A DNA stretch of 48,820 nucleotides from Candidatus Poseidoniia archaeon (GTDB lineage: Archaea; Thermoplasmatota; Poseidoniia; MGIII; CG-Epi1), in NCBI GenBank assembly GCA_030748895.1, contig JASMLC010000012.1, forward strand, positions 1 through 48,820. Direction: 5' to 3'. Position 1 is the stretch's first letter; each line of letters opens with the position of its first letter. The position numbers were made by a program, and so were the translations under genes. Below are positions 1,259 through 48,820 of this stretch, in pieces. A model generated the notes under the pieces. It was not told the origin of the DNA, searched no databases, and saw nothing but the letters and a program-made list of their open reading frames with translations.

Positions 1259-2283
1259 TGGTAAAACTCAACGTGCTTGGCCGGCCTCTCGACGACTACC
1301 GCGGATTCAAGTCGACACTCTGCTCCGGCTGCGGCCACGACGCCGTCTCGAGTGCGATAATCTCTGCAGCATGGGCCAACGGGCTGCCGCCCGAGTCGCT
1401 GGCCAAGATGTCCGGCATTGGCTGTTCATCGAAGACGTCAGCCTATATCCTGGGGCGGAGCCACGGCTTCAACACCGTCCACGGACGGATGCCATCGGTA
1501 ACGACTGGCGCGGCCATGGCGAACCGTGACCTCAGCTTCATCGCTGTCTCAGGAGATGGGGATACCGCTGCAATCGGCATCGGCCAGTTCATCCACGCCA
1601 TCCGGCGCAACCTGAACATGGTTTACATCGTCGAGAACAACGGCGTTTACGGCCTGACGAAAGGGCAGTATTCGGCAACCGCCGAGGAAGGCTCGCAAAA
1701 GCGCAAGTCGCCGCCGAACCAGACACAGCCGATTGACCTTTGCAAGCTCGCGATTACGCTCGGCTGCTCGTTCGTCGCACGCTCGTTTTCGGGCTCGCGC
1801 CAGCAGCTGGTGTCTCTAGTGCGCGCCGCACTGTCACACCGCGGGATGGCGGTGATAGACGTTATCTCGCCCTGCGTGACATTCAACAATAATGAGGAGT
1901 CGCTCAAATCCTACGGCTACGTCAAGTCGCACGACGAGGAACTGCACATCGTCGACTACATTCCGCACTTCGAGCCGATAACAGAGGTAGATGTACCGGC
2001 GGGCGAATTCCGTAAGGTGCAGCTGCACGACGGCTCGTTCATCCGGCTCGAGACAATTGATGAGGCACACGACCCTGCCAGCGAGATAGCTGCACTCAAT
2101 GCACTCCACCGCGCCGAGAACGCGCAGAAGCACGTCACCGGGCTGCTCTATTTCAATCCCGGCAAGCCGACACTCGACGAGACGCTCAACTTGGTCGAGA
2201 CTCCACTGGCTGACCTACCGGACAAAATGTTGAGACCTCCCAAGAAAACCCTGGATGAACTATTAGCTAATTTCAGGGCTTGA
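1258..2283 (+). CDS. korB: 2-oxoacid:ferredoxin oxidoreductase, beta subunit (thiamine diphosphate-binding)
   Basis: Beta subunit partner of the preceding alpha chain, 341 aa. It carries the Cys motif CSGCGHD near the N terminus (codons around 1321-1338), which supplies ligands for a [4Fe-4S] cluster, and the thiamine diphosphate motif SGDGDTAAIG followed about 25 residues later by ENNGVYGLTKGQ. ATG at 1258 overlaps the upstream stop by one base and is preferred to the TTG one codon earlier. This two-subunit enzyme needs no separate delta ferredoxin subunit, unlike the four-subunit enzyme at 3825-6713. It ends the transcription unit: the next gene begins 81 bp downstream and differs strongly in base composition. 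Confidence 0.92.
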   Translation: MVKLNVLGRPLDDYRGFKSTLCSGCGHDAVSSAIISAAWANGLPPESLAKMSGIGCSSKTSAYILGRSHGFNTVHGRMPSVTTGAAMANRDLSFIAVSGDGDTAAIGIGQFIHAIRRNLNMVYIVENNGVYGLTKGQYSATAEEGSQKRKSPPNQTQPIDLCKLAITLGCSFVARSFSGSRQQLVSLVRAALSHRGMAVIDVISPCVTFNNNEESLKSYGYVKSHDEELHIVDYIPHFEPITEVDVPAGEFRKVQLHDGSFIRLETIDEAHDPASEIAALNALHRAENAQKHVTGLLYFNPGKPTLDETLNLVETPLADLPDKMLRPPKKTLDELLANFRA

Positions 2284-2364
2284 TCTACTCTCAACACTCA
2301 TGTCTTTTTATGAAATGAACCCCTGACTTTATCTATCCCTATTATCTCAATCCAACAGGCAGAA

Positions 2365-3684
2365 ATGAACCGAATTATTCCGATTGGACTGATGATTGTG
2401 CTGGCTACAACCGGATGTACCGGTCCCGGGGGATTGTTTGGCGATGATGAGGAAAGAGACGAACCTTTTGTTTATGACCTGACCATTGATGACCTCTGGG
2501 CCGATATTCCTGGAAATATGACCCCGGCTTCTGATATTGTCAATATGACTTATGGACTTGAGAAAAGTCCAAGAGTAACGAACTTCACTGAGATTGGATA
2601 CAGTATCAACGGCCAGCCATTGTTATTGCTTGAATTTGGGGATTATGATCCCTCAGTTCCAACTGTCTATTTCGTTGCCGCCCAGCATGGAAACGAGCCA
2701 GCATCAGTTGATTCAGCCTATCTTATGGTTCGCCATTTTGCAAGAGGAATACCTGAAGAGATAGACCCAATTCTGGATGAGATTAATCTGGCAATCCTGG
2801 TAATGGTCAACCCCGACGGACGTGATAATGGAACACGAGGAAATGCGAACGGTACTGACCTGAACCGTGATCACATGAAATTGATGGAACCAGAGGGAAA
2901 GGCAATGCATCGTGCATTTGACAGTGTGCATCCCTCGGTCACAGTGGATATGCATGAATTCGGAGGAGCTGGAACGGTCATTTTCCAGGTAGCTGCTCCC
3001 CAGAATCCAGCAACCCATCACGATGTTATTTTCGCTTCCTACAACTTGGAAACGACTGTCATAGACTCGATCAGTGAGGAATGGGGAATTGGTAGCGTTA
3101 CGAATTATCCGCCCACAACCAGTTCACAGGATTCCAGTATCCATCGTAATCACTTTGCGGTACACGGTTCTACAAGTTTACTTTTTGAATCTGCAGTCTC
3201 CGAGGAATACTCGGAAAGAGTCAGGCTCCAGGCCTGGGCTGCACTGGCTGTGATCGGTGAAGTGGCTGAAAACCCAGATTACTATCTGGAGGCGCGTGAA
3301 TCTTCAGATGAGGAAGGTCAAGAAGGAAATAATTTTGTTTATGCCTATCTCTTTGAATGCAGCGATCCTGCAGCTGTGGAGACAATCCGGATCCTGAAGG
3401 ATCATGGATTCTATCTGGGTGTAAAGTCAGATAACGAAGGGGTTTCCTCAATCCATTATGAGACCTTCGTGCCAAGGAGCAATTTTCCAAATGGCACTAT
3501 CGTAGTTCCCATGAACCAGATTGGATGGAGGTCCCTTAGTGAACTGATGGAATATACTTCAGAAAAAGACCAGCATTATACCAATTCACCCAAAGATAGA
3601 GGAATGGACGCTTGGCGTGCCCTCAACTCCGTGGAATTCAATGTCCAGACAGTGTCCTGTCTGAACCCCGAGAAACTCCTTTAA
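2365..3684 (+). CDS. M14-family zinc metallocarboxypeptidase, predicted lipoprotein
   Basis: Secreted or membrane-anchored zinc carboxypeptidase-like protein, 439 aa. The N terminus is a hydrophobic signal ending in a lipobox (ATTGC, Cys near residue 18), followed by a Gly/Asp/Glu-rich linker. M14 features are visible: HGNE (His108, Glu111) as the first two zinc ligands, DMHE with His197 as the third, an Asn-Arg pair in DLNRD for the substrate carboxylate, and LLFESA (Glu275) in the position of the catalytic glutamate. It probably trims peptides outside the cell, supplying amino acids. The gene is clearly more AT-rich than the Kor genes on both sides and sits alone between two Kor operons, which suggests acquisition by transfer. 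Exact specificity is unknown; succinylglutamate desuccinylase-like members of the superfamily are an alternative. Confidence 0.85.
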   Translation: MNRIIPIGLMIVLATTGCTGPGGLFGDDEERDEPFVYDLTIDDLWADIPGNMTPASDIVNMTYGLEKSPRVTNFTEIGYSINGQPLLLLEFGDYDPSVPTVYFVAAQHGNEPASVDSAYLMVRHFARGIPEEIDPILDEINLAILVMVNPDGRDNGTRGNANGTDLNRDHMKLMEPEGKAMHRAFDSVHPSVTVDMHEFGGAGTVIFQVAAPQNPATHHDVIFASYNLETTVIDSISEEWGIGSVTNYPPTTSSQDSSIHRNHFAVHGSTSLLFESAVSEEYSERVRLQAWAALAVIGEVAENPDYYLEARESSDEEGQEGNNFVYAYLFECSDPAAVETIRILKDHGFYLGVKSDNEGVSSIHYETFVPRSNFPNGTIVVPMNQIGWRSLSELMEYTSEKDQHYTNSPKDRGMDAWRALNSVEFNVQTVSCLNPEKLL

Positions 3685-3824
3685 TGGGTGGTGAAATACC
3701 TATAGTAATGGTACGACATATCAGTTTGTTTCACATGTTTGCCTCCCGGGCCGAGTGGGTTATTTCCCTGTATCCTGGAGAGACTGTAACATGGCTTGCT
3801 CACAACCCACATGGATGTGCCTGA

Positions 3825-47433: not shown

Positions 47434-47506
47434 GGGAGTGCCTCCATACGAATTGGCGTCGCCACCTTGGGCGCCGCTATAAGAGTGACGTCATCGACGG
47501 ACGGCG

Positions 47507-47968
47507 TCACCGCCGCCGCCCCTCCGCGTCAACCTCGCCGGCGCGGATGCGCGACGCGCTCAACGGCAGCCCATCCGCCGCCAGCAGGTGCGGGACCGTG
47601 ACGACTTCCAGCGGTGCCAGCCCGCGCGCGAGGCGGCGCGCGTTGAGCCGCGCCGCCGCCTCGCGCGTCCCTTCGGAGACGACGATACCGTCGATGTCGG
47701 CGCCCTCGGCCGCCGGTCCCCACTCCTCGGCCAGCGAAACTATTTCGACACGCTCGAGCGCGTCGCGCGCCGTGAACCAGTCGCGCAGTGCCGCCTCGCG
47801 CGCGCCGTACAGCGCCAGCTCGCGGTCCGGGGGACGCCGGCCGGCGGCGAACTCGTCGCTGGCGAGGCCGATTACGAGCGCCTTGCCCGCTGCGAGCGCC
47901 GCCTCCAGCAGCCGCGCGTGGCCGGCGTGCAGGATGTCGAAAGTGCCGCCGAGGCAGACGCGCTTCAT
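47507..47968 (-). CDS. coaD: Phosphopantetheine adenylyltransferase, archaeal type (cytidylyltransferase-like)
   Basis: 153-aa nucleotidyltransferase with GGTFDILHAGHARLL (His14 and His17 of the HxGH motif) at the N terminus, DGIVVSEGTREAAARLN in the middle and SASRIRAGEVD at the end, the pattern of archaeal CoaD. It joins ATP and 4'-phosphopantetheine to dephospho-CoA, feeding CoA to the Kor enzymes. A TTATTA box lies 25-26 bp upstream of the ATG at 47968, consistent with a leaderless mRNA. It is divergent from the HMA-DUF4396 gene. A related adenylyltransferase activity (glycerol-3-phosphate cytidylyltransferase or FAD synthetase) cannot be fully excluded. Confidence 0.88.
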   Translation of the reverse strand: MKRVCLGGTFDILHAGHARLLEAALAAGKALVIGLASDEFAAGRRPPDRELALYGAREAALRDWFTARDALERVEIVSLAEEWGPAAEGADIDGIVVSEGTREAAARLNARRLARGLAPLEVVTVPHLLAADGLPLSASRIRAGEVDAEGRRR

Positions 47969-47990
47969 CGGTGCGGCAGGCGACCGTTCC

Positions 47991-47996
47991 TAATAA
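47991..47996 (-). promoter_or_regulatory. TATA-like box of coaD
   Basis: Minus-strand GGTTATTAGG, centred 25-26 bp upstream of the ATG at 47968. The divergent gene has a separate box 20 bp away. Confidence 0.5.
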
Positions 47997-48010
47997 CCGC
48001 TGGCGGCACC

Positions 48011-48016
48011 CTTATC
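48011..48016 (+). promoter_or_regulatory. TATA-like box of the HMA-DUF4396 gene
   Basis: CTTATC centred about 26 bp before the ATG at 48040. Confidence 0.45.
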
Positions 48017-48039
48017 CCCGCGCCGGATTCGCGCGTCGC

Positions 48040-48762
48040 ATGAGCGAAACGACGACCACGCTCGCCGTCGGCGGAATGACCTGCGGCGGCTGCGCCAACA
48101 ACGTGCAGCGCGCGCTGGAAGGCGTCGCGGGAGTGACGTCGGCCGCGGTGGACCATGTCGCCGGCAACGCCAATATCGCGCACTCAGGCATCGATAGAGG
48201 TGAACTCGAGGCGGCTGTCACCAGTGCAGGATATTCCGTAGGAGAAACGACTGGAGCTAGTGGACTTCACCAGCTTGGCAGTCCGCCCACGGGAACTGCT
48301 ACAGCCGCTGCTGGTTTTAACTGGAGCGATGGGGACATCTGGTGGCAATCAGCTCATAACACTAAATGGTGCCTGATTGGGTGTTCAATTGGCGAATTCG
48401 GAACTCTCGCCTATTACTCATTTTCAGGCATTACTGCCGATCTCGTGCTGTACTCTAACATGTGGTATTTCTTTGCAATCCTGCCGCTCATCAACGGTCT
48501 TGCTACCAGCGTGATGCTTGAAACAATATTGCTTATGCAAGGTCAGATGGATTTCAGTAATGCGCTGTCAACGGCAATGGGAATGTCTTTCATTTCAATG
48601 CTGATGATGGAGATAGCAATGGAGATTACCGACCTTCTCTTTACTAGTGGTGAACTCGGACTCATGTACATCGCAATCCCATTCATGCTCATTGTCGGCT
48701 TCCTGACACCGTGGCCCTACAACTACTGGCGGCTGAAGAAGTTCGGTCAAGCTTGTCACTAA
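48040..48762 (+). CDS. HMA heavy-metal domain fused to DUF4396 membrane protein
   Basis: 240-aa fusion. Residues ~7-72 form a heavy-metal-associated (copper-chaperone-like) domain with the ligand motif GGMTCGGC (Cys15, Cys18). After a Gly/Thr/Ala linker the DUF4396 domain begins near residue 104 (WWQSAHNTKWCLIGCSIGEF) with about four hydrophobic helices (FFAILPLINGLATSVMLETI, GMSFISMLMMEIAMEITDLL, YIAIPFMLIVGFLTPW). DUF4396 is uncharacterised but often near metal or copper genes. The ATG has a TATA-like box 26 bp upstream; the longer frame from 47788 only overlaps coaD. The 5' ~160 bp is very GC-rich like its neighbours, while everything after about 48200 is much more AT-rich, with the switch near the domain linker. 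Confidence 0.85.
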   Translation: MSETTTTLAVGGMTCGGCANNVQRALEGVAGVTSAAVDHVAGNANIAHSGIDRGELEAAVTSAGYSVGETTGASGLHQLGSPPTGTATAAAGFNWSDGDIWWQSAHNTKWCLIGCSIGEFGTLAYYSFSGITADLVLYSNMWYFFAILPLINGLATSVMLETILLMQGQMDFSNALSTAMGMSFISMLMMEIAMEITDLLFTSGELGLMYIAIPFMLIVGFLTPWPYNYWRLKKFGQACH

Positions 48763-48820
48763 AGACTGTATTCGAGTTTATCAGACCTGCTCATGAGGTC
48801 CCTAAGACAATCTGGAGTTC
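48763..48820. other. Window end, no feature recognised
   Basis: The last 58 bases are AT-richer than the rest and show no start codon with a convincing context or any RNA feature. Confidence 0.4.

Follow-up and report, generated by a model that had tools for sequence, protein, structure and literature searches.

A mosaic HMA-DUF4396 gene in a marine archaeon, with evidence for repeated exchange of its membrane core

The stretch of DNA analysed here (hereafter the window) is the whole of contig C12 (48,820 b), from the 1.41-Mb, 97% complete genome of a Candidatus Poseidoniia archaeon. Its average GC content is 62%, and its last gene, in which an HMA domain is followed by a DUF4396 domain, changes from 68% GC at the HMA end to 46% in the DUF4396 part. 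How a single reading frame came to hold two compositions, and whether its two domains share one history, are the questions raised by this locus.

An earlier note on the sequence had described the gene as an HMA-DUF4396 fusion, and both domains were confirmed above their Pfam cut-offs. HMA was assigned as PF00403 by the curated cut-off (E 2.3e-11, 44.4 bits against 24.8) and by a CxxC metal site, C15-x2-C18, that is present in 83 of the 83 HMA sequences aligned. DUF4396 (PF14342) matched at residues 101–235 with E 8.5e-27 and 94.7 bits against a cut-off of 27, covering positions 2–139 of the 141 in the profile and thus the whole domain. This gene is the sole DUF4396 match of its genome. Features of the locus are collected in Table 1.

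Table 1. Features at the end of the window (positions in the window).
Feature	Position	Strand	Basis
Upstream neighbour, cytidylyltransferase-like gene, GC-rich, same place in G002	47507–47968	−	Pfam, synteny
HMA-DUF4396 fusion gene, 240 aa	48040–48762	+	ORF and Pfam matches
HMA domain, residues 7–65, motif GMTCGGC (C15, C18)	48058–48234	+	Pfam; modelled fold
Composition step, span between the two fitted change points	48172–48315	+	Change-point fits
N-terminal anchor of DUF4396, residues 93–118, ending ...NTKWCLIGCSIG, alike in types A and B	48316–48393	+	Alignment
Recombination switch, 11 bases common to window, G001 and G005	48364–48374	+	Informative sites, alignment letters
First-helix motif C111-x3-C115-x3-E119	48370–48396	+	C111 and C115 invariant in 69 rows
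DUF4396 core read as exchanged, residues 122–219, type A	48403–48696	+	Tree, pair identities
C-terminal anchor, residues 220–240, ...TPWPYNYWRLKKFGQACH, near-identical between types	48697–48759	+	Alignment
Contig tail overlapping C3:1–117 at 86% identity, two versions of one place	48704–48820	+	Alignment

Comparison with two species of the same genus, G001 and G005, revealed that the closest relative changes inside the gene. The window is 98–100% identical to G001 in 48173–48349 and 95–100% identical to G005 from 48364 on, as against merely 72–83% to G005 earlier in the gene. The ratio of G001-like to G005-like informative sites in the gene is 69:2 to the left of 48364 and 3:155 to the right of the switch (Fisher p 3e-52), a sharp change of closest relative within one reading frame that identifies the gene as a mosaic. 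Up to 48374 the window agrees with G001, and from 48364 with G005; the switch falls where the Cys motif begins. The earlier proposal that the two halves differ in history, the DUF4396 half being incoming, agrees with this switch as well as with the separate trees and the composition described below.

The switch could alternatively be an assembly chimera, with sequence of two strains joined near the contig end. The contig stops 58 b after the stop codon, the window is nearly identical to G005 right of the switch, and the first 117 b of contig C3 are an 86% version of the contig tail, so that the recombinant may be only one strain form in the sample, or part of the tail may have been wrongly joined. 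However, G001 and G005 share 11 identical bases at the switch, a match too short, by argument rather than by test, to mislead a k-mer assembler on its own, and similar mosaics are found in many other genomes. A chimera is therefore considered unlikely.

C3 is placed next to C12 by gene order in G002 and opens with about 1.4 kb of low GC. On this placement, the AT-rich DNA, whose extent past the window end the earlier note had asked about, seems to continue into C3. Positions 1–1450 of C3 (L004) hold a YitT-like gene (GC 0.48) and a DNA alkylation repair gene (GC 0.36), an order repeated in G002 and in the low-GC relative G006. Of 20 fetched loci, 8 have a YitT-like gene together with the fusion; all 8 belong to the window's family, and both A and B cores are represented among them. 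In G004, another AT-rich gene follows the fusion (L033, 2897–3868; 323 aa, GC 0.43, without Pfam match), and the downstream place is therefore variable within the genus.

To place the two parts of the gene phylogenetically, the best 80 of 555 relatives, from a scan with one genome per species, were combined with 20 loci of relatives and the window into a set of 101 loci, or 90 after dropping 11 duplicates. A DUF4396 tree (90 rows, 148 columns) comprised two deep groups, type A with 29 rows including the window and type B with 61 rows including G001. The types differ completely at five residues (E/D119, L/I123, Y/F126, P/A149 and E/N195; 25/25 against 58/58 each). In the HMA tree (83 rows, 69 columns), five rows of the window's genus, g1, were split from six other rows of family f1 with a support of 95. 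By contrast, the DUF4396 data reject genus g1 as one clade (p-AU 5.5e-7) and likewise the remaining f1 rows (p-AU 2.3e-4).

The same discordance was evident in pairwise comparisons. HMA identity reached at least 72% in 102 pairs, 36 of which pair an A with a B core; in those 36, identity was up to 95% in the HMA domain and 81–100% in the C-terminal anchor and only 35–48% in the core. In the opposite case, 32 pairs had cores at least 88% identical and HMA domains below 68% of bases; for L060/L067 the values were 98 and 49%. The archaeal locus L100 and L120, from the Verrucomicrobia isolate AG-439-D21, share 91% of bases in the core and 48% in HMA, an apparent part-gene transfer between domains of life as judged from these sequences. 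Cores of different type also occur among the same neighbours, with flanks of 96 and 90% identity for L060/L084, 82 and 80% for L066/L120, and 82 and 81% for L034/L039. Verrucomicrobia carry A (L064, L066) and B (L120) cores beside alike neighbours (a peptidase S41 protein, a GAF protein and an esterase). In marine group II, an A locus (L060) and two B loci (L084, L093) adjoin the same class-I tRNA-synthetase gene and have their downstream neighbour, NAD synthase in L060, in common; the synthetases of L060 and the two B loci are 96–98% identical and their cores 40–44%. In all, 306 A/B pairs had common neighbours, a count that includes short matches of about 50 aa, and the argument is therefore carried by the named pairs.

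Core identity was poorly correlated with that of the neighbouring tRNA-synthetase (rho 0.22, 31 loci), compared with 0.64 for the HMA domain at the same number of loci and 0.55–0.81 for 60 random 98-column synthetase pieces compared with the synthetase. Within type B, rho with the neighbour gene was 0.41 for the core versus 0.60 for HMA. A scan of the class, with at least 150 rows, types assigned by identity as a proxy for tree groups and genera counted by hand, gave 37 type A (66–100% identity), 111 type B (48–62%) and 2 partial matches among the matches listed, and among these both types occurred in 12 of the 19 genera with a match (g1, g2, g7, g9, g12, g13, g15, g17, g18, g22, g24 and g25). 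Parsimony on the whole HMA tree required 19 type changes, near the mean of 21.8 for shuffled labels partly because 69 columns resolve poorly; well-supported branches forced just 6. With so short an HMA alignment, the count of exchanges stays uncertain.

The two types might instead be old side-by-side paralogs, sorted by differential loss without horizontal exchange; both are indeed present together in G259, and a Thioglobus genome has each as a stand-alone gene. Against this, the breaks fall within the reading frame, A and B forms can have HMA halves that are 93–95% identical, and cores of 91–98% base identity stand behind dissimilar HMA halves, which makes the paralog explanation very improbable. 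Exchange of the core, in this genome and repeatedly elsewhere, is strongly favoured, and cores have apparently been swapped between species, even between archaea and bacteria.

The composition step and the differing histories of the halves would also fit the earlier note's proposal of a recent join between a host-type HMA domain and an incoming DUF4396 gene. Relatives, however, carry the same fusion. It is spread over Poseidoniia, in marine groups II and III alike, and also occurs in marine Verrucomicrobia (L064, L066, L120); at 94 of the 101 loci (83/90 without duplicates) the ORF also encodes an HMA domain. A search of 60 genomes, own included, yielded a match including the DUF4396 part in 30, spread over three families, and weak matches to the HMA part (E 1e-8 to 1e-4) in 24 more; in the class as a whole, DUF4396 is present in 157 of 339 genomes. 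Copies that lack an HMA domain are found in SUP05/Thioglobus and SAR11. A recent join was thus abandoned as a highly improbable origin. The pairing of HMA with DUF4396 is of old date and found widely among ocean archaea, and the DUF4396 part has recently been replaced inside this already existing fusion, leaving a G005-like core behind a G001-like front. Short stand-alone HMA proteins are also found in Poseidoniia (L202–L207); six in-frame stops in HMA matches were checked and all proved to be ordinary ends of such proteins.

The contrast between a GC-rich HMA end and an AT-rich remainder, first pointed out in the earlier note, was upheld by change-point analysis. GC was 0.677 in 48040–48200, 0.558 in 48201–48363, 0.461 in 48364–48762 and 0.448 in 48763–48820. 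A one-change-point fit over 47500–48820 placed the change at 48172 (log-likelihood ratio 45.1); inside the gene, the fit gave 48315 (12.1, against a maximum of 8.0 among 500 shuffles). GC at third codon positions fell from 0.81 (codons 1–54) to 0.37–0.58 past codon 55, or about 0.57 for the DUF4396 part; the 22 ORFs of at least 250 aa in the window have a mean of 0.75 (sd 0.11). That membrane-protein amino-acid composition alone accounts for the low GC, membrane segments using U-rich codons, is scarcely tenable, as third-position GC drops as well and the DUF4396 half of the sister G004 has a third-position GC of 0.88. The step has parallels elsewhere: of 2421 sliding intervals of 420 b in the window, 86 had a GC below 0.50. 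The lowest values, at about 2061–3700, mark a candidate import, which holds an ORF (2365–3681, third-position GC 0.44) with a Peptidase_M14 match.

The composition step and the recombination switch are two different places. The low-GC stretch between them, 48187–48363, matches G001 at nearly every base and has a version of about 75–79% identity in G005; G002 and G004 deviate here. Being common to the window and G001 and present in G005, this stretch is therefore an older import or an older state of the locus.

As to the route, homologous recombination between conserved flanks (residues about 91–122 and 212–240) would replace the membrane core. Both types have in common the stretch around NTKWCLIGCSIG and the end TPWPYNYWRLKKYGxACH. 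The left end of the best segment fell at residues 91–122 in all 30 pairs, out of 32, for which it could be numbered, and the right end at 212–240. The segment ends vary, yet fall within or beside the conserved parts; because of this variation, site-specific exchange in its simple form was rejected, and ordinary homologous recombination in the flanks is enough to account for the movement. A tblastn search of viral contigs found no relative, and plasmids gave none at 1e-5 with one type-A DUF4396 sequence as query. One Thioglobus genome (G342; L159, L164) holds both DUF4396 types as separate stand-alone genes; this genome and G259 are possible sources of cores. As some genomes hold both types, paralog conversion within one genome could explain part of the pattern. 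Taken as a whole, the mosaic-gene interpretation, an old fusion whose core has been replaced repeatedly while types A and B circulate, is regarded as probable.

We know of no structure or biochemistry for DUF4396. The protein was modelled (pLDDT 87.2 for the whole protein; 86.6, pTM 0.78, for the domain alone). The model contains a chaperone-like HMA fold resembling CopZ/MerP-type structures (Z up to 13.6), a disordered linker at 71–89 and helices at 98–129, 140–167, 172–181, 184–202, 210–222 and 225–235. DUF4396 would accordingly span the membrane four times in this model, with both ends predicted inside because the tail residues are basic. A fold search with the whole model was filled by HMA structures, the viral library giving nothing at E 0.001 or better; Foldseek with the DUF4396 model alone found no PDB chain at E 0.001 or better. 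A NOT1 fragment, the best second-look match of the DUF4396 model (Z 5.9, 97 residues), was set aside as a common helical arrangement.

Residues C111, C115, N152, S157, E161, M187, M190, E191, M194, D198 and C239 are invariant in 69 rows, and C111, C115 and residue 119, being spaced by four, lie on one common helix face. Stand-alone DUF4396 copies have copper-protein neighbours, a multicopper oxidase (L068) and a cupredoxin (L126). Together with the HMA domain, the invariant residues and these neighbours suggest handling of Cu(I) or a soft metal. The HMA CxxC site would take up or hand over Cu(I), or a different soft metal, which the membrane domain would pass along a path of C111/C115/(E or D)119, N152/S157/E161 and M187/M190/E191/M194/D198; C239-H240 stand in the protein's tail. 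The transport step of this putative route is given an even chance, and the metal-sensing or metal-delivery role put forward in the earlier note is plausible.

MerT carries a Cys pair in its first helix. The MerT/MerP and MerTP (NF033556) systems likewise combine HMA with a small membrane domain bearing such a pair, but only the HMA part of our protein matches NF033556 (33.5 bits, cut-off 180) and it is not a member. CopZ chaperones have the same HMA fold with CxxC; their model NF047957, the best NCBIfam match, scored 50 bits against a cut-off of 85, again excluding membership, and here the fold is fused to a membrane domain. CTR-type copper transporters have Met-x3-Met in a membrane helix and a Cys-His tail. 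This is a resemblance alone: no sequence or fold link to CTR was found, nor was it among the domain-model matches listed, where absence excludes nothing. Distant bacterial DUF4396 members share the CxxGCxxG[ED] helix motif; those aligned lack most of the conserved C-terminal block of the marine group, and in our protein the domain is fused to HMA. Sub-cut-off DUF4396 matches in other bacteria were all dropped, the correct ORFs of L176, L177 and L194 resembling what we take to be ABC-type permeases. A literature search for PF14342 found no mention, and a further search, at the level of titles and abstract openings, nothing on an HMA-DUF4396 gene. DUF4396 was named in one paper of the literature searched, which places a DUF4396 protein among those flanking a metal-resistance cluster in Acidihalobacter (PMC7760498).

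Exchange of half a gene is familiar from resistance and antigen genes. In the present case, a single membrane domain, from a family without assigned function, appears to have been exchanged repeatedly and over a long time among uncultured archaea that are abundant in the ocean, and Verrucomicrobia have apparently been reached as well. The aph(3')-IIa mosaics (PMC4437187) likewise join segments of different ancestry in one reading frame; in the gene studied here, by contrast, a single membrane domain exists in two deep versions that turn up again in genus after genus and apparently in different domains of life. That A (E119, P149, E195) and B (D119, A149, N195) are functional alternatives, forming a cassette selected for swapping, is a tentative proposal; metal affinity, for instance, or escape from a virus or toxin using exposed loops could be the grounds. 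The residues fixed per type (E/D119, P/A149, E/N195) would point to what may be tuned, and those common to both types (C111, C115, M187, M190, E191, M194, D198, C239) to what the protein must do, which offers a way into the function of DUF4396. Whole-gene trees of this family mix two histories, and, if the swapping cassette holds, sharing across marine Archaea and Bacteria in the plankton would take place at the level of the domain and not of the gene.
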